In this document: positions 7,459 to 17,431 of the stretch, piece after piece
How positions within the stretch are numbered: position 1 is the first letter of the stretch
How the letters are laid out: each line of letters starts with the position of its first letter
Origin: a virus
Length of the DNA stretch: 21,635 nucleotides
Strand: one strand, 5' to 3'
IMG/VR virus record: IMGVR_UViG_3300012920_000330
Coordinates: 1-21,635 of that record
Translations under genes and position numbers: made by a program
Notes under the pieces: generated by a model
Seen by the model: the letters and a program-made list of their open reading frames with translations, nothing else
What the model was told of the DNA's origin: nothing
The model's database searches: none

Positions 7459-8418
7459 TTAGCCTGTCATAAATGTAGGTGGTAATTCATATCTGTTTTG
7501 CATCTCTTCTTCTATTTGTGCAATTTCGTTTACAGCTTCACTGTAGATCTGATCACCATTTAGTGTTACACCTCCAGGAAGTTGAATACCGCCAAACTTC
7601 TTCATATTTTCTCCCCACTGTCTCTTGATCAGAGCAGTAGTATATTTTTTGAGCCACATGTCATCGTAGACTTCGGCATAATCTGCCCCTGCAACAAGTG
7701 CATATCCCTCTGCAATGACATAATCTCCGATATTGAAAGTTCTATCCATATCGGTATCAATATAAAGTTTGTTTGTTTTTCTATTAAATCTAATTGCTCG
7801 GTCGTTTACGAAAAGACTTTCTAGCACATTCATGTGCGTTTTGACCATTGAATAATATGTTACATCAGCAGCCAATAGATTGTAAAGATCGTTTTGTGCG
7901 AATTGATAATCAATATCGAATAAGCCATCTGAATTTGACGTTGAACCGATACCACCAAATTTAAACATTCTTGTAACACCAAGAATATTATCTGCGATAT
8001 CAATGTATCCGTTTTCGATATTACCTTTTACGATCGAACTGATTGTGGCAGTTGTGCCAGAGTCTGCACCTGTGATAGTTTCATTTGCTGCAAACTTTTC
8101 TACAGTCGTTACGTTTTCATAAATTACTTTTGTCCCAGAACTGCTTTTGTCTACAATAGCTTCTGCGCCAGATGTTCCACCTGTAATCTTTTCTCCTGCA
8201 TTAAATGTTGCCGATGAAGTAAGATTTAATGTCGTTCCTTCAAGTGCTTTTTTAATATAAACACGCTCGACACCATCAAAATGATGCTCTTGCCATAACT
8301 GTATGGCGTCATCGACACGATCGCTTATTTGATCGTCATCTACATTAATTTCGATTACAGGGAATCCTAATCTTCTGAGGGAGTAATCTATAAGTTCTTG
8401 TCTAGTAGTTAGAGCCAT
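7459..8418 (-). CDS. 13: Neck protein gp13 with inserted repeat domain
   Basis: This is the head completion/neck protein that binds the portal after packaging. The N-terminus (ALTTRQELIDYSLRRLGFPV), VDDAIQLWQEHHFDGVERVY at residues 35-54 and the C-terminal WGENMKKFGGIQLPGGVTLN with EMQNRYELPPTFMTG are typical of T4-like gp13. Length is 319 residues (309 in T4). Residues 64-130 hold two beta-repeat units (FNAGEKITGGTSGAEAIV and FAANETITGADSGTTATI) that interrupt the family sequence and look inserted. A perfect late box lies about 40 nt upstream and an AGGGG ribosome binding site precedes the ATG, so this gene probably heads the gp13-gp17 transcript. Confidence 0.93.
   Translation of the reverse strand: MALTTRQELIDYSLRRLGFPVIEINVDDDQISDRVDDAIQLWQEHHFDGVERVYIKKALEGTTLNLTSSATFNAGEKITGGTSGAEAIVDKSSSGTKVIYENVTTVEKFAANETITGADSGTTATISSIVKGNIENGYIDIADNILGVTRMFKFGGIGSTSNSDGLFDIDYQFAQNDLYNLLAADVTYYSMVKTHMNVLESLFVNDRAIRFNRKTNKLYIDTDMDRTFNIGDYVIAEGYALVAGADYAEVYDDMWLKKYTTALIKRQWGENMKKFGGIQLPGGVTLNGDQIYSEAVNEIAQIEEEMQNRYELPPTFMTG
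8029..8229 (-). repeat. FxxGExIxGxxSG repeat pair within gp13
   Basis: Two units of about 33 residues, FNAGEKITGGTSGAEAIVDK and FAANETITGADSGTTATISS, follow one another in gp13. Small Gly/Thr-rich units of this pattern occur in many phage structural proteins. Here they separate two otherwise contiguous gp13 segments. Confidence 0.65.
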
Positions 8419-8456: not shown

Positions 8457-8464
8457 TATTTATA
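8457..8464 (-). promoter_or_regulatory. Late promoter for gp13
   Basis: On the minus strand this is a perfect TATAAATA box 38 nt before the gp13 ATG. It lies in the intergenic gap, just downstream of the structured stretch at 8480-8604. Confidence 0.72.
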
Positions 8465-8479: not shown

Positions 8480-8604
8480 AGTGGGCGAGGATTTGCTGAC
8501 GACTATGTTATGACTGGCTTGGCTTATCTTCTGCCCTTAACATATGTCCCTCGAGGATGTCAGCTTCAGCGCACTACTGCCAGAGTTATGCGCAACTCGC
8601 CCAC
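8480..8604 (-). ncRNA. Candidate structured RNA with loop-loop pseudoknot
   Basis: This non-coding stretch is 52% G+C, well above its surroundings, and almost every base fits one fold. Closing helix: 8481-8489 with 8596-8604, nine perfect pairs. Inside it, 8495-8500 pairs with 8559-8564 (GCTGAC/GTCAGC). Nested in that, 8501-8510 pairs with 8538-8548 (ten pairs, one bulge), and CCTCGAGG at 8549-8556 can form a mini-hairpin. A separate hairpin pairs 8569-8573 with 8589-8593 (GCGCA/TGCGC). The two large loops can join through CTGGC 8514-8518 with GCCAG 8579-8583. The minus strand is preferred because neighbouring genes read that way and the unpaired bases are then A-rich (TGAA, AGAAGATAA). It starts one base after the upstream stop codon. 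No known family is recognised; wcaG and manA RNAs of marine phages were considered but cannot be checked here. Confidence 0.6.
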
Positions 8605-8605
8605 A

Positions 8606-8932
8606 TTATTTCGTCACTTGGGGTGTAACTGTAACAATTCCTTCGACAACTCTTATTGTCTCGGATGCTGAAGCAGATTCAACGTCATAAACGTATCTTC
8701 CTGCCTTTAAATTTCCTGTCTGGGCTGCGGTTAAAGATAGTGTAATAACACCTGTACCGTCTACTTGCGCAGTAGTAAAATCTGTTGATGACGAACTGTA
8801 ATAGCTTTTTCTTATTTGTGCTGTTGTTGTATAGCCAGTCAGGTCTTTTGCTGAACCTGTACTATCTTTGGCAGTAACCGTCGTAGAGAATGTTGTTCCC
8901 TGATCAATTACTATGTTCTGTTGAGTTGCCAT
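8606..8932 (-). CDS. Small beta-rich virion protein (BppU N-domain/Ig-like)
   Basis: This encodes 108 residues with alternating Thr/Ser-rich strands. The pattern is NIVIDQGTTFSTTVTAKDST, then AKDLTGYTTTAQIRKSY, VITLSLTAAQTGNL and GRYVYDVES, ending in EGIVTVTPQV. This resembles the small Ig-like fold at the N-terminus of BppU-type baseplate proteins and stand-alone proteins common in T4-like marine phages. A structural role, perhaps as a decoration or fibre attachment subunit, is inferred from that resemblance and from its late promoter. There is no signal peptide and no cysteine. It has its own TATAAATA box 22 nt upstream and an AAGGAG ribosome binding site, so its transcript would run straight into the candidate RNA downstream. 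Confidence 0.7.
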   Translation of the reverse strand: MATQQNIVIDQGTTFSTTVTAKDSTGSAKDLTGYTTTAQIRKSYYSSSSTDFTTAQVDGTGVITLSLTAAQTGNLKAGRYVYDVESASASETIRVVEGIVTVTPQVTK

Positions 8933-8953: not shown

Positions 8954-8961
8954 TATTTATA
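8954..8961 (-). promoter_or_regulatory. Late promoter for the 108-residue virion protein
   Basis: On the minus strand this is a perfect TATAAATA box, 21 nt before the ATG at 8932. It leaves a leader just long enough for the AAGGAG ribosome binding site. It is 4 bp from the -35 element of the opposing promoter. Confidence 0.78.
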
Positions 8962-9004: not shown

Positions 9005-9697
9005 ATGCTTACAATACATACATTATTATATGGTGACAAGTATAATTACGATGACGTAAATCGGATTGCTGCAACAATAGGCATTGGAGCAGGTTTCCAA
9101 TATCGTTATGTTTGTCATACTGATCAGGGTGAACGCCTTCGTGCTGAAGGTCTTTATCCTGAAATTAATTTGCGATGGGCAGACTCAGAACTTGGAACAT
9201 TCGAGAAAGTAAATATCTTGGGACAAGACTGGGGACAATCATTATATTTAGATTTAGATGTGGTAATACAAAAACCAGAAAAGGTCTGGGATTTGTTTAC
9301 TGAGGGTTTGAAGATTTGTAAAACACACTGGAAACACGATGGCTTCGAATCTGAACACGGTGGCGGTGATTTCAATTCAAGTGTAATAGCTTGGAAGGGG
9401 ATTCAAGGTCTTAATATCAAAAAACACTTCAATGAAAATCCATACAAATGGATAAGAGAATATAAGGGTTGTGATGATAAATACCTATTCCACGAGCATA
9501 AAAATGACTTTGATACATATGAAAAAGGAGTGTTATACTCCTATATGTATGGAATTGACCACGAAACGGATGTAAGTCCACGTGGCAGAAAATACAGACC
9601 TGACCCAACAATTTGTTTGTTGAATGGTCAGGATCGACATAATTTTGATTTGAGGACTGATTACTATACTCACTTTTCTAACGATAAAGTGGGGTGA
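9005..9697 (+). CDS. Glycosyltransferase, DxD type (cassette copy 1)
   Basis: This is a 230-residue nucleotide-sugar-dependent transferase of the kind found in T4-like marine phages. The N-terminal strand MLTIHTLLYGDKYNYDDVNR and YRYVCHTDQGERL at residues 33-45 form the nucleotide-binding start of a GT-A fold. YLDLDVVIQ at 81-89 carries the metal-binding DxD (D83, D85), and GGDFNSSVIAW at 120-130 fits the acceptor side. The sugar and acceptor cannot be told. It is the first gene of the cassette and the closest match in layout to the copies at 9666, 11042 and 12787. The start is supported by alignment to those copies; no good ribosome binding site is near, consistent with a leaderless message. 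Its last 32 nt overlap the next gene. Confidence 0.8.
   Translation: MLTIHTLLYGDKYNYDDVNRIAATIGIGAGFQYRYVCHTDQGERLRAEGLYPEINLRWADSELGTFEKVNILGQDWGQSLYLDLDVVIQKPEKVWDLFTEGLKICKTHWKHDGFESEHGGGDFNSSVIAWKGIQGLNIKKHFNENPYKWIREYKGCDDKYLFHEHKNDFDTYEKGVLYSYMYGIDHETDVSPRGRKYRPDPTICLLNGQDRHNFDLRTDYYTHFSNDKVG
9652..9656 (+). promoter_or_regulatory. Ribosome binding site that points to an ATA start
   Basis: GAGGA at 9652-9656 lies inside the end of the first glycosyltransferase and is followed after 9 nt by ATA at 9666, in the frame of the next gene. The first ATG in that frame (9735) lies inside the conserved domain and would remove the family's KWGxKY motif. Confidence 0.6.
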
Positions 9698-11051
9698 AAA
9701 ATACTCTCCTGATTATGTAAATAATCTATATGGAATGATTGATGCTAATTATGTCAATCAGTTTCGTATGGTTTGTTTCACAGATGAGCCAGAAGGCATT
9801 CGCGAAGAAGTAGAAGTACATCCCATTCCTGATATAAAACCACTTCATCCAAAGTATTGGTTCGGAGAGGAGAATTATTGCTGGGATCGTTCTAAATTTT
9901 TATTGTTCAATGCAGAAGAATGGCTTGCAACGACTGGACCATTCTGTTACTTTGACCTTGATGTAATTATCCAAGACTCTATTGACGAGTTTTATGACCT
10001 TGCATTCAAACCACATATCTTATACTCACACTGGCAACCTGAAGGACAACTCAAATTAAGAAGATTTAGAGATATACGAGGAACATATTTTAACTCCAGT
10101 TGTATGATGTGGTGGTCTGATCAGCCGAAAAAAATATATGAAGATGTGATAGAGAACCCAGATATATTCAAAACATTCTATAAGGGTTCAGATAATTACC
10201 ACCAATGGCGTAGACCAGCAGGAACTGAATTCTGGAACTTCTTACCACACGAATGGTATTATAGTTATAACTATCAAGATACAGATTATGATGCAAAACT
10301 CGCTCTGTTTAATCAGAATGTAATAGAGAGCGAAGATACAATATCAATAGACCAGTTGGAAGATTCTATACTTCTTAATCATTGGTATGGTAAGTATGAT
10401 ATGTATAAAGACTTTCCTACTCGTGTTGTATTGGAACTTACTAACAAACACAACGATACAGGAAACTCGTTCAATGATATATTTGTTGAAGATGACGAAC
10501 TTACATTGCAAGATGTAAAAAGAATATTCCAAGAAACACCTGAATATGTAACTTTCCTACACACACTTTCTAAACCGAGTCGCTGTAAAGATTATATGAA
10601 AATTATAGAGTGGTTTGAAGAACAAGGAAGTCAAATAATAATTCCAGCTATGCCTGAAGAAGTCCCAGTTGAAGTGTCAAATATGCCTGACATTAAGAAA
10701 TCTGATCAAGTAACGAGAGAAAACATTAAGAAATTTAAACAGAAAGAAGAATATAGGAATGTTGCAAAAGAAGAAAAATGGGTGATTGATTGTGAAGCTA
10801 GAAACGAAAATATGGTTTACATCAATGCAAAGGGACAAGTTTTTCCTTGTTCATATATCGCGAGAGATATTTTAGAGAATAGACTCTACCCTCTCCACCC
10901 AATAGACTATCCGTACAATCCTAAATATAATAACGCGAAGTCCTTTCCATTAAAGGAAATTGTATATAATGCGGACTTTGAATGTTATAATGATAGTCTT
11001 AAAAAAGACCATTTAAAAATTTGTAAAGAGACTTGTGGAAGATGCGTGTAA
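9666..11051 (+). CDS. Glycosyltransferase fused to degenerate radical SAM/SPASM-like region
   Basis: From ATA at 9666 the product has 461 residues; from the first ATG (9735) it has 438 and lacks its N-terminal strand. Residues 1-240 are a DxD glycosyltransferase: IKWGEKYSPDYVNNL at 7-21, YFDLDVIIQ at 95-103, YFNSSCMMWW and a Tyr/Trp-rich acceptor region. Residues about 250-335 resemble the start of a radical SAM barrel (VVLELTNK then an LTLQDVKRIF helix and KIIEWFEEQG), but the CX3CX2C positions read H262, G266, F269. Residues 372-461 resemble a SPASM domain: C376, YINAKGQVFPC (C395), C440 and CKETCGRC (C453, C457, C460). So the cluster-binding tail is kept but the catalytic cluster site is lost. 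The 3' end overlaps the next gene. Function beyond glycosyl transfer is not predictable. Confidence 0.75.
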   Translation: MLTFLTIKWGEKYSPDYVNNLYGMIDANYVNQFRMVCFTDEPEGIREEVEVHPIPDIKPLHPKYWFGEENYCWDRSKFLLFNAEEWLATTGPFCYFDLDVIIQDSIDEFYDLAFKPHILYSHWQPEGQLKLRRFRDIRGTYFNSSCMMWWSDQPKKIYEDVIENPDIFKTFYKGSDNYHQWRRPAGTEFWNFLPHEWYYSYNYQDTDYDAKLALFNQNVIESEDTISIDQLEDSILLNHWYGKYDMYKDFPTRVVLELTNKHNDTGNSFNDIFVEDDELTLQDVKRIFQETPEYVTFLHTLSKPSRCKDYMKIIEWFEEQGSQIIIPAMPEEVPVEVSNMPDIKKSDQVTRENIKKFKQKEEYRNVAKEEKWVIDCEARNENMVYINAKGQVFPCSYIARDILENRLYPLHPIDYPYNPKYNNAKSFPLKEIVYNADFECYNDSLKKDHLKICKETCGRCV

Positions 11052-11842
11052 ATTTTGTATGTGCTAAATGGGGTACAAAGTATGGGGCACACTTTGTCAA
11101 TAGACTATGCAACATGGCTCGTAGAAACTGCCCTGATCAGTTTGACGTACACTTCTATTGTTACACTGATGATGATACTGGTCTTCAATCTGATATTAAA
11201 GTTATCCCCTTTCCAGATATTCCGAACATCCATCCTAAGTATTGGTTTGGGATGGACGATTTTAAATACGGAATGGCTCGTTGTTGGGATCGTGCAAAAA
11301 CTTTTGTTTTTAACACCCATAATTTCGCCGATGACAAACCTACTGGTCGGTTCGTCTTTCTAGATCTTGATGTAATAATTCAAAACGACCTAACTCCTAT
11401 AATTACTTACAATATGGAACAACCTACAAAGATGCGTTCTTGGTGGCAAGATCCCAGACCAATGAATAGTCGTAGATTTAAACTGTCACACGGTGCATTT
11501 ACCAATGGCAGTTGTCAAGTATGGAGTGATGACCAATGTGAACCAATATGGGAAGATGTACTAAAACATCAGGAAAAAATTTGGTTTACATTCACAGACG
11601 GCACTGATAATTACCACAGTTGGCGTTGGAAAGAACTATGGGATTATTTTCCAAGTTGGATGGCATACTCGTATAATCGAGGTCGCTCTTGGGATGAAGA
11701 CGATTTGAACGTAGGAATTTATAGAGAGAATTGTATCCTCTGCGTATTCAATGTCGACCTTCTTCCTTTCGAAGATGCATCGCGAGGTACAACAAAACAA
11801 GATGAATTAGTCGACCCAAAATTATTGGAACACTGGAAATGA
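11042..11842 (+). CDS. Glycosyltransferase, DxD type (cassette copy 3)
   Basis: This 266-residue protein begins MRVNFVCAKWGTKYGAHFVN, matching the N-termini of the other three cassette transferases. A TTG at 11033 would extend it by three residues, but alignment favours the ATG at 11042. Motifs are FYCYTDDD at residues 38-45, HPKYWFG at 64-70, CWDRAKTFVFN at 81-91, FLDLDVIIQ at 106-114 with D108/D110 as metal ligands, TNGSCQVWS and GTDNYHSWRW. HPKYWFG and DNYHxWR also occur in the 9666 gene, so these two are the closest pair. The gene overlaps the previous one by 10 nt and the next by 4 nt (ATGA), pointing to coupled translation. Substrate unknown. Confidence 0.82.
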   Translation: MRVNFVCAKWGTKYGAHFVNRLCNMARRNCPDQFDVHFYCYTDDDTGLQSDIKVIPFPDIPNIHPKYWFGMDDFKYGMARCWDRAKTFVFNTHNFADDKPTGRFVFLDLDVIIQNDLTPIITYNMEQPTKMRSWWQDPRPMNSRRFKLSHGAFTNGSCQVWSDDQCEPIWEDVLKHQEKIWFTFTDGTDNYHSWRWKELWDYFPSWMAYSYNRGRSWDEDDLNVGIYRENCILCVFNVDLLPFEDASRGTTKQDELVDPKLLEHWK

Positions 11843-12234
11843 AGATAGGATTTACTGCAAGTGCATTTGATTTACTACATACTGGTCACGTTGCTATGTT
11901 GCAAGAAGCAAAACAACAATGTGATTATTTGATATGTGGATTACATTTTAATCCTAGATGGGAAAGGAAAGAGAAAAATAAACCTGCACAGAATATCGTT
12001 GAACGATATACACAACTAAAAGCAGTGAAATATGTAGACGAAATTATACCATATTCAACTGAAAGAGAACTGTTAGATATTTTAGAACTATATCCAATTG
12101 ATATAAGAATCATTGGTGAAGAATATAGAGATAAAGATTTCACAGGTAAAGATATGGGAATAGAAATTTACTATAACAAACGACAACACAGATTTAGTAG
12201 CAATGAATTACGAAACAAGATTCTGGAGAAATAA
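11839..12234 (+). CDS. Cytidylyltransferase, TagD/glycerol-3-phosphate type
   Basis: This 131-residue enzyme belongs to the HxGH nucleotidyltransferase family, which joins a phosphorylated small molecule to CMP (or AMP). The start MKIGFTASAFDLLHTGHVAM carries the catalytic H14-TG-H17, and GLHFNPRWERKEKNKP is the usual substrate loop. ERYTQLKAVKYVDEIIPY at residues 55-72 and the HRFSSNELRNKI end correspond to the TagD ERxxxLxxxxxVDEVIP and RTxGISTTxI segments, the latter with replacements. Length matches TagD (about 130). It would supply a CDP-activated group such as CDP-glycerol to neighbouring transferases; whether the substrate is glycerol-3-phosphate cannot be decided. Start codon and previous stop overlap as ATGA. 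Confidence 0.83.
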   Translation: MKIGFTASAFDLLHTGHVAMLQEAKQQCDYLICGLHFNPRWERKEKNKPAQNIVERYTQLKAVKYVDEIIPYSTERELLDILELYPIDIRIIGEEYRDKDFTGKDMGIEIYYNKRQHRFSSNELRNKILEK

Positions 12235-12790
12235 GGATTGGTTATGGACTGCTGATGACCACCATGCTTGGAATCATTTGACTATACAACATCCTGATAT
12301 TCCTAAACAGATACTTGAAGAAGTTGATGGTGTGAATATGGTCGTTCAAGCAGGTGGACATTGCGGTTTATATACATGGCAATATTGTTCCGCAGTTGAT
12401 GAAGTTGTAACATTCGAACCAGATTCTTGGAATCTAAAATGTTTGAAAGAAAACTTAAAAGAATATAATAATGTTTCAATATATCCATATGCTCTCGGTA
12501 ATGAAGATAGAAAATGTGGAATAAAAAGAGACAGAGTAAATAGCGGTGCAACAAGAGTAAAACGAAGAGGTGAAATACTGCAGGTTACATTAGATAAATT
12601 TCATTTAGAACCTGATTTAATTCACCTAGATATTGAAGGTATGGAAAGAAGTGCACTCAAAGGAATGTTAGGTACGATAAAAATAAGTAAACCTGCGATT
12701 GTATTGGAAAGAGCAAACGGCGAGGATATATTGACAGATATGGGTTACAAAAGACATAAACAGTTTGGATTAGATTGGCTATACCTATGA
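12203..12790 (+). CDS. FkbM-family SAM-dependent methyltransferase
   Basis: This 195-residue protein has the FkbM pattern of O-methyltransferases that often act on sugars. Motif I is VVQAGGHCGLY at residues 47-57, the acidic ribose-binding residue is E72 in VVTFEPD, and the family signature is LDIEGME at 142-148, following a VTLDKF segment. N-terminal residues about 1-40 (WRNKDWLWTADDHHAW) are an extra phage-type lead region rich in Trp and His. It probably methylates the glycan made by the neighbouring transferases (inference from context). The start lies 32 nt inside the cytidylyltransferase gene, and its stop overlaps the next ATG as ATGA. Confidence 0.85.
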   Translation: MNYETRFWRNKDWLWTADDHHAWNHLTIQHPDIPKQILEEVDGVNMVVQAGGHCGLYTWQYCSAVDEVVTFEPDSWNLKCLKENLKEYNNVSIYPYALGNEDRKCGIKRDRVNSGATRVKRRGEILQVTLDKFHLEPDLIHLDIEGMERSALKGMLGTIKISKPAIVLERANGEDILTDMGYKRHKQFGLDWLYL

Positions 12791-13461
12791 ACATATACAC
12801 AGTGAAATGGGGAGACAAATACTCCTCTGATTATGTCAATAAGATTGCATATGATGTTGCTTCTGATTTTCCAGAAACTAATCGTCAGATGTATTGTATA
12901 ACTGATAATCCAGAAGGATTGGCTGAATTTATTGAACCTATCTTGATTCCCAAATATAATGATTTAGAGAAATGGTGGAACAAAATGTATTTGTTTTCGC
13001 CGTTGGTTGATCAGAAAGGAGAAAAACTTTTCTTTGACCTTGACATTCTAATTCAGCACGATATAAAAGCATTTGAAGAGTTTGAACCTGAAGATTGTTT
13101 AGGTATTGTAAAGACTTGGTGGCACGATCTCGAGCGGATGCGCGAGGAGACAAAGCACGTACCACATAAATTCAGCGATATTAACTCAAGTATATTACGC
13201 TGGAATGATAGTTTCGACTCTGCAAAGCTGTGGGAATACTTTAATAAATATAAACAACAGATACTTTGGCAATATCGAGGTATAGATAATTTTCTTTGTG
13301 ATAAGAATATAATCCCGATGAAACTGTTCCCTCTAGGATGGGTTTACAGTTTCAATCAAGGTTATATCTATCCACAAGATATTGAAAAGCACGTGTATCG
13401 TGACTTGCCATATATATGTTTATTTGACTCTATGGGTAAAAGTGAAGATGTTAAAATCTAA
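12787..13461 (+). CDS. Glycosyltransferase, DxD type (cassette copy 4)
   Basis: This 224-residue protein starts MNIYTVKWGDKYSSDYVNKI at an ATG overlapping the FkbM stop; a TTG twelve bases upstream is disfavoured. QMYCITDNPEGL at residues 34-45 is the nucleotide-binding strand, LFFDLDILIQ at 81-90 holds the DxD (D84, D86), and INSSILRWN gives the acceptor-side motif. IPMKLFPLGWVYSFNQGY near the C-terminus matches the Tyr-rich acceptor region of the paralogues. It is the fourth related transferase in the cassette and the most compact. Its last 14 nt overlap the next gene. Donor and acceptor are not predictable. Confidence 0.82.
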   Translation: MNIYTVKWGDKYSSDYVNKIAYDVASDFPETNRQMYCITDNPEGLAEFIEPILIPKYNDLEKWWNKMYLFSPLVDQKGEKLFFDLDILIQHDIKAFEEFEPEDCLGIVKTWWHDLERMREETKHVPHKFSDINSSILRWNDSFDSAKLWEYFNKYKQQILWQYRGIDNFLCDKNIIPMKLFPLGWVYSFNQGYIYPQDIEKHVYRDLPYICLFDSMGKSEDVKI

Positions 13462-14119
13462 TTTTCTAAATAATTTTAAGTTCTATGGTGAAGCATTATA
13501 TTTCATCGAACAAAAAGCACCACACAAACTTACCGACTTACGCCAATGTCACGAGCAAAACCATGTCGAAGCTGCAACATGGCTCGTAGAAGAACTGATC
13601 ACAAATATTGACAACTGTGCAAGGCAGGAAAAACTAAAAGTATTAGTTCTAAACTCTTGGTTGGGTATGCCACTTGTTCCTTTACTTTGTGAAAATATCG
13701 ACATCGGAGAGTTACATTTAGTCGATCTCGACAAAGAAGCATTGGATATATCTAAAATACTACACAAACATTATGCACAAGAGAAGTTTGTAAAGTTTAG
13801 ACATCATTGTTTAGATATTCCGTTTGCATTTGATGACTTAAATAAAATAGATGCGGATATCGTAATCGCTATCAATACTGAACAAATGTATCCGCTAAAA
13901 GAACTTACAACAAAAAACCCAATGGCATTGTTTGCTTGTCAGAATAGTAATGTTATTGAAGAGATGTATGGTATCAACTGCGTCAATTCAGTAAAAGATT
14001 TAACCGAGCAAATCGGTCTAGATGAGATATACTATGAAGGACAAAAAGAGCAAACATACTACTCTTGGGATGGGCAAAAAAAGTACGATCGCTTTATGGT
14101 GATTGGCTCAAAAGAATAA
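13448..14119 (+). CDS. Class I SAM-methyltransferase-like protein
   Basis: The product has 223 residues from the ATG at 13448, preceded by GTGAAG; longer readings from a TTG at 13382 run through the previous gene and are rejected. A Rossmann-like core is visible: KVLVLNSWLGMPLVPLL at residues 64-80 in the place of motif I, ELHLVDLDKEALDISKIL at 88-105 with the usual acidic residue, LDIPFAFDDLNKIDADIVIA at 122-141, and NTEQMYPL. Motif I lacks the common GxGxG, so cofactor binding is likely but not proved. It is the last gene of the cassette. No terminator hairpin is seen after it. Confidence 0.6.
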   Translation: MLKSNFLNNFKFYGEALYFIEQKAPHKLTDLRQCHEQNHVEAATWLVEELITNIDNCARQEKLKVLVLNSWLGMPLVPLLCENIDIGELHLVDLDKEALDISKILHKHYAQEKFVKFRHHCLDIPFAFDDLNKIDADIVIAINTEQMYPLKELTTKNPMALFACQNSNVIEEMYGINCVNSVKDLTEQIGLDEIYYEGQKEQTYYSWDGQKKYDRFMVIGSKE

Positions 14120-16351: not shown

Positions 16352-17431
16352 TTAGCCAATTCTAACAAACAGTTTTTTAGATTCTTGTGTGCTTGAAGAA
16401 CTGATAATCGTCACACCATCATAATAACCTGTGTATGTACCTGAATAAGATCCATCATAAGAACCTGTATATCCTCCAGTATATGAACCTGTGTAAGATC
16501 CAGTATATGAAGTTCCAGAGTATCCACTAAAAGATGCTGCATAAGATCCAGCATATGCTCCATCATATGTACCAGAATAAGTTCCATCATAAGAACCTGT
16601 GTATGAACCAGTATAAGAACCAGCATATGCATAGGTCGCTGTATCTTTCGCCTGATCAGTCATCGTTTCACCTTGCTGTTGCCAAGTTCCAGTTCCTGGA
16701 GCAGCTGATTCAAAGTCATATGTGCCAATTTGTGAACCTGTGGCGTCTTGAATTCTGTTTACAAAAGGTGCATATAATGCTTCAACTTCAGCTGTTGACA
16801 TAGCTTGTAAAGATTGATCATCTGGTTTTTTAACTAAACTCTCGAATGTTTGAAGAGTATGTGGAGTAGTTGCTGCAGTTTTTTGCCAAAGTGTTTTTGT
16901 TACAGAAGTTCCGTCCACTTGTGTGTCAGTAATAGTTCCTCTACTTGTCCACGTACCACCAGATGGAGCAGAAGCTGATAGGTAATAAAGACCTGCTGTA
17001 TTCGTATTCCCTGCAACCATAGCTGCAATAATTGGATCGCAAATTTCAGATGCAATTTCAGCGTCTGTCATCTCAAGTAAATCAGCTTCGGCATTTACTC
17101 TTACTGGTCTTTCAAAAGTACCACTATCTGCAGTAGTACCCATTGCAATGGTATAAACATTTACATTAGTTGTTGCACCATCTGTTGGGTGTGTACCAAC
17201 TGCATCGTTTCTTTTTCTGTCTGTGAATGTTCCAATATCAGTGAACCCAGAAGGGACACTACCTGAAGTTCTTAATCTTAGAGATGCGGTTCCATCAACA
17301 CTAGCATATTTTGTTGTGATCAGATTTGCTGTAGTGGTTTTTAACTCAGTGAGAGTCATCTCACGGACACCACCTTCGTAGTTATTACCGTTGCTGTCTG
17401 TAGTACCTTCTATTCTTATTGGACCAGCCAT
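16352..17431 (-). CDS. Repeat-rich tail-fibre-like protein with YTGS tail
   Basis: This 359-residue protein is built from repeats. Residues 24-71, 120-172 and 210-262 are three copies of one unit: a helix-like MTxxE(I/L) segment, then a strand, then SxPxxGTWxxxGxxTD (SGSVPSGFTDIG, SASAPSGGTWTSRG, SAAPGTGTWQQQG). Residues 267-339 are a run of YxGS/YxGT tetrapeptides with a Tyr at almost every fourth residue, then a short C-terminal strand (KLFVRIG). The N-terminus MAGPIRIEGTTDSNGNNYEG resembles other phage fibre-type starts. Together with its neighbours this suggests a host-contact fibre or fibre-associated protein. The Tyr/Gly repeat could form a beta-helical or adhesive shaft (inference). 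The start has AAGGA upstream. Confidence 0.7.
   Translation of the reverse strand: MAGPIRIEGTTDSNGNNYEGGVREMTLTELKTTTANLITTKYASVDGTASLRLRTSGSVPSGFTDIGTFTDRKRNDAVGTHPTDGATTNVNVYTIAMGTTADSGTFERPVRVNAEADLLEMTDAEIASEICDPIIAAMVAGNTNTAGLYYLSASAPSGGTWTSRGTITDTQVDGTSVTKTLWQKTAATTPHTLQTFESLVKKPDDQSLQAMSTAEVEALYAPFVNRIQDATGSQIGTYDFESAAPGTGTWQQQGETMTDQAKDTATYAYAGSYTGSYTGSYDGTYSGTYDGAYAGSYAASFSGYSGTSYTGSYTGSYTGGYTGSYDGSYSGTYTGYYDGVTIISSSSTQESKKLFVRIG
16415..16633 (-). repeat. Tandem 12-bp units encoding YxGS/YxGT repeats
   Basis: Units such as TAYACTGGTTCN coded on the minus strand repeat with a 12-bp period for about 220 bp, giving YTGSYTGSYDGTYSGTYDG-type protein with one irregular patch (ASFSGYSGT). 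Codons vary between units, so the protein pattern is probably selected rather than freshly expanded. Confidence 0.85.
16646..16804 (-). repeat. Unit 3 of threefold repeat in the fibre-like protein
   Basis: Residues about 210-262, with MSTAEVEALYAPFVNRIQDA followed by SAAPGTGTWQQQG. The counterparts are at 16916-17074 and 17219-17362. Confidence 0.65.
16916..17074 (-). repeat. Unit 2 of threefold repeat in the fibre-like protein
   Basis: Residues about 120-172, with EMTDAEIASEICDPIIAAMV followed by SASAPSGGTWTSRGTITD. Confidence 0.65.
17219..17362 (-). repeat. Unit 1 of threefold repeat in the fibre-like protein
   Basis: Residues about 24-71, with EMTLTELKTTTANLITTKYA followed by SGSVPSGFTDIGTFTD. 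It is the most divergent of the three; Phe replaces the Trp. Confidence 0.55.

Follow-up and report, generated by a model that had tools for sequence, protein, structure and literature searches.

A stable RNA fold in the probable remnant of a tail-fibre-like gene upstream of gp13 in a T4-like virus

Late genes of T4-like phages carry intercistronic or 3'-terminal hairpins, usually a single short one. Other structured RNAs, the manA and wcaG motifs, are located in possible 5' UTRs of metabolic genes in T4-like cyanophages and are represented by Rfam models (PMC2864571). Template-switch mutation is documented to create and mend stems, in that case in RNA genes (PMC8794818). The element described here is located on the minus strand of a virus sequence of 21,635 nt (IMG/VR record IMGVR_UViG_3300012920_000330, positions 1 to 21,635), hereafter the window. 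Like the late-gene hairpins it is a stable structure between two late genes, and like manA and wcaG a structured RNA of a T4-like marine phage. It differs from the former in being a 124-nt multi-helix fold that appears to derive from a dead gene, and it matches neither of the latter. With the template-switch stems it shares paired changes in inverted-repeat arms, which here, in contrast, affect a gene relic and are isolated single-pair changes in several helices. A counterpart with an intact frame is a 517-aa tail-fibre-like gene in the record IMGVR_UViG_3300020446_000161 (loci L002 and L085, a single record). It occupies the same slot, is homologous along the whole element and has the same three main helices, whereas the window retains about 124 of its 1,554 nt in a broken frame. 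The gp13 and the terminase of the window match T4-like phages, the closest among the isolates listed being 41% (Synechococcus phage S-T4) and 49.5% identical. The features of the locus, in the direction of the minus strand, are the following.

8954..8961, minus strand: putative T4-type late promoter TATAAATA of the 108-aa gene (sequence match)
8606..8932, minus strand: upstream 108-aa gene (PHROG 1084; weaker match to tail-fibre assembly families)
8481..8604, minus strand: probable structured relic of a tail-fibre-like gene, P1 to P1' (fold z -4.0; synteny and homology with L085:5117-5247; broken frame)
8596..8604, minus strand: P1 5' arm GTGGGCGAG, pairing with 8481-8489; one pair G-C versus A-T in L085
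8569..8593, minus strand: P2 hairpin GCGCAT...GTGCGC with loop CTGGC (MFE fold; one clear double change and one U-A to U-G change versus L085)
8495..8564, minus strand: P3 GCTGAC/GTCAGC around a mini-hairpin and P4 (10 bp), large loop with GCCAG (MFE fold; P3 double change versus L085)
8481..8489, minus strand: P1 3' arm CTCGCCCAC, pairing with 8596-8604
8457..8464, minus strand: putative T4-type late promoter TATAAATA of gp13 (sequence match)
7459..8418, minus strand: gp13-like neck protein / head-tail adaptor Ad2 (family matches)

A sequence-only reading of the window had described the stretch as a G+C-rich structured RNA with two complementary loops, starting one base after a stop codon and ending just before the gp13 late promoter, and the computed properties agree with this description. 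Folded as minus strand, the 125 nt have a minimum free energy (MFE) of -47.2 kcal/mol (z -4.0), and none of 200 dinucleotide shuffles was equally stable; the minus-strand fold of 8604-8481 has about -46 kcal/mol (z about -4). The helices are P1 (9 bp, arms 100% complementary, enclosing 106 bases), a hairpin of 6+3 bp, a 6-bp helix with a nested 10-bp helix (one bulge) and a 2-bp mini-hairpin. The plus strand of the element is nearly as stable (-46.9, z -3.6). Among 861 sampled minus-strand stretches of 125 nt, none was lower in energy, while some in coding regions were lower in z. The loop pentamers CTGGC and GCCAG are present, with a chance of approximately 4% for such a pentamer in a shuffled loop. 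The G+C content is 52% compared to 37% for the window. The element starts one base past the stop codon of ORF 8606-8932, and the predicted gp13 promoter follows 16 bases downstream, so that the two late-promoter matches flank the element together with the 108-aa gene. The sequence 3' of P1 on the minus strand is TCCCACTTTAAAC.

No match at gathering score was obtained in the window with Rfam 15, including manA, wcaG, ribozymes and riboswitches, in agreement with the earlier statement that no known family is recognised. A lax Rfam search returned only ceN108 at chance level (E 4.1, 14.9 bits with 50 needed), and neither tRNA nor tmRNA was found in the window by ARAGORN. The suggested likeness to riboswitches or processed RNAs gained no positive support. 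The designation as an unrecognised RNA family does not hold: the element is very probably what is left of a tail-fibre-like coding sequence, and it occurs in one small phage clade only.

The region upstream of gp13 was read in 56 of 80 related loci, and the element was located before gp13 in only two of them (L001 and L003). A pattern search yielded one more element-bearing record (L164), and the element is carried by the window and three IMG/VR records. Further IMG/VR pattern scans recognised no additional relic; the 54 matches of one scan, known records aside, are presumed chance matches to short patterns. When the element was compared by blast with the fetched loci, one further, weaker match was obtained, to L085. 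The gp13 of this record is 98% identical to that of the window, and the corresponding slot, flanked by the 108-aa gene and gp13, contains the 517-aa tail-fibre-like gene (L085:4340-5893), whose product matches PHROG tail-fibre families at both ends. The element aligns over its full length with L085:5117-5247, a GC-rich in-frame segment of this ORF. With 51% G+C compared to 40% in its gene, the segment accounts for the composition that had first drawn attention to the element. The translation of the element is recognisable in a broken frame, SGSSALKLTSSRDIC*GQKI...SQASHNIVVSKSSPTP-TLNSY, with an in-frame stop and a frameshift, and the relic differs from the L085 gene by the frameshift, by stops and by a P4-loop deletion. 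The four element-bearing records, all of them fragments, gave no match to the 517-aa protein. The full-length alignment and synteny with an intact copy, the broken frame and the absence of the intact gene from these four fragmentary records make it almost certain, as judged from sequence comparison, that 8481-8604 (minus strand) represents what survives of the middle of a tail-fibre-like gene, with a dead frame. What is new about the element is where it comes from: a coding segment that died but retained its fold.

A search with model R1 covered 99 distinct viral records and matched the relic clade only, plus the coding relatives ever more weakly, with a single match in the window. Named phage isolates gave a chance-level match of 33 bases to the element and none to the fibre gene or its segment. 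Some homologous tail-fibre-like genes have a domain of 33-34 aa (VDELHIG...AKA; L085:5117-5215 and homologues) at a fixed position, while others, among them a group of more distant genes, are without it. A template repeat of a diversity-generating element was considered and dropped by reasoning, as the differences go beyond adenines and no target gene is present in these records.

The coding segment of L085 contains P1 (GTGGACGAG/CTCGTCCAC), P2 (GCACATTG/CAATGTGC), P3 (GCTGAA/TTCAGC) and a variant P4. In a window-like fold it reaches -38.2 kcal/mol compared to its own minimum of -41.5, and it is more stable than synonymous-codon shuffles (z -3.45, p 0.0025). Helices P1-P3 are thus predicted to be present in this segment while still coding, and the predicted fold predates the death of the gene. 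In other coding relatives, 18 (L004), 14 (L095) and 9 (L170) of the 21 P1-P3 pairs are kept. The L004 segment also exceeds its synonymous shuffles (z -3.9), but was not counted as the same structure since its own best fold is unlike that of the window. Fold stability against synonymous shuffles was not significant for L095, L008, L006 and L170.

The window and L085 differ at 24 of 122 aligned positions (20%), compared to 5-7% in the flanks. Despite seven changed paired bases, all 21 pairs of P1-P3 are kept, with three double changes, all from A-U to G-C or C-G, and one U-A to U-G change; this comparison rests on three distinct sequences. Compensatory changes, the absence of which from homologous regions had been named as evidence against the structure, are therefore found in these helices. 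At each of the three double-change pairs, A-T is present in L004 and L095, and both changes of each pair consequently most likely occurred on the relic side. Of 100,000 random placements of the same substitutions, a single one retained every pair with as many double changes, for helices picked out after the fold and the result had been seen. For the whole fold, with no choice of helices, the corresponding values are p 0.0045 for the double changes and p 0.013 for the pairs kept, and shuffles made with the tool reached the observed value in 6 of 500 cases. P4 has been rebuilt and is out of register with L085. L163 breaks one P3 pair of the minus strand, at a double-change pair, and of the wobble changes one favours the minus and one the plus strand. 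The postulated loop-loop pairing is without covariation support, as the complementary pentamers are invariant among the sequences that have them. Between the two relic sequences, 2 of 126 bases are different, and one of these differences breaks the P3 pair; since about 7% (6.8%) of same-length stretches between the same phages differ as little, this conservation is weak evidence. The full fold is found in three distinct sequences and the intact gene is supplied by one record, which limits all claims made here. Taken within these limits, the fold is probably maintained rather than accidental, while selection as the cause, and not a mutation mechanism, is an even call.

The best explanation as a whole, to which we assign a probability of about 0.4, is a relic fold that is kept by selection and acts as a passive 3' structure. 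According to this explanation, an RNA fold of a coding sequence would have outlived its gene and now be located at the 3' end of a late message. The late transcript carrying the 108-aa gene would be the target of selection, and within it the fold is located downstream of this gene and ahead of the gp13 promoter. With its 9-bp stem closed and its hairpins stacked, the fold might slow 3' decay of the upstream message or, alternatively, keep it separate from that of gp13. Either role, protection or separation, is put forward tentatively; a passive structure would be the most economical and the likeliest reading. That a structure of use inside the coding region went on as an independent non-coding RNA once the protein had been deleted, which would amount to the birth of a non-coding RNA from a phage structural gene with both states extant in close relatives, is rather unlikely. 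The sequence-only reading had placed the element at the 3' end of the message from the promoter at 8954-8961, or had it released from there; the former agrees with a structured, non-coding element towards the 3' end of this predicted late message, whereas release of a processed RNA found no positive support. With a functional fold, close relatives would show it both within a coding sequence and without the protein, and the passage from messenger to non-coding RNA would be datable and testable in one small phage clade.

The main rival is template switching, i.e. a functionless relic in which quasipalindrome mutation during DNA replication perfected the inverted repeats by copying arm onto arm, with apparent compensation in the absence of selection. 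This is a possibility to be taken seriously, although we hold it to be somewhat improbable. The mechanism is documented (PMC8794818), the changes in the arms of P4 are clustered and have made these arms fully complementary, and the relic has diverged at about three times the rate of its flanks. The two strands are about equal in fold stability, and conservation between the relics is not exceptional. The changes in P1-P3, on the other hand, affect one isolated pair at a time, in arms separated by as much as 106 bases, and each helix would have required an event of its own; the pair changed to U-G is not a product of arm copying, and the fold is above expectation already in the coding gene. A functionless fold would be a natural case of a covariation-like signal without selection, which matters for covariation-based RNA searches.

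An active regulatory RNA is improbable. The multi-helix fold with complementary loops and its position 63-186 bases upstream of the gp13 start codon would suit an element acting in cis on gp13 in read-through transcripts, or an RNA that is released from the 3' region of the 108-aa message and acts in trans. However, a separate late-promoter match for gp13 is located downstream of the element, and the element is lacking in relatives with the same gp13 gene and confined to one small clade, with an invariant loop-loop contact and no Rfam match. Even less probable is an element acting at the DNA level, as a recombination edge or structured site where tail-fibre genes are swapped. The content of this slot, from the 108-aa gene to gp13, does vary among relatives, and the relic and the 33-34-aa domain share their left edge, but the right edge appears to extend past P1, no copy was found in other slots or records searched, and most relatives swap genes here without the element. 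An intrinsic terminator for the 108-aa message, suggested by the GC-rich closing stem after the stop codon and by hairpins with a T run before gp13 in three relatives, can practically be dismissed, as the closing stem encloses 106 bases, no T run follows P1 and no compact GC-rich hairpin with T run was found at the element on the minus strand. These hairpins (L029, L030 and L032), which resemble intrinsic terminators, are located upstream of the gp13 late promoter at the place of the relic in the window; structure at this junction is thus not unusual.

Upstream of the 108-aa gene, a block of plus-strand ORFs (9005-14119) is located amid the minus-strand late genes. Several of its ORFs look alike, and their sequence suggests sugar-transfer functions; ORF 9005-9694, the one scanned, is without PHROG or Pfam match. 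Strong RNA folds are present in plus-strand ORFs of this accessory cluster at 9500-9650 (z -5.2) and 13286-13410 (z -4.0). An ORF at 16352-17431 (minus strand), without PHROG match, is rich in short Gly/Tyr/Ser repeats (SYTGSYTGSYDGTYSGTY...).
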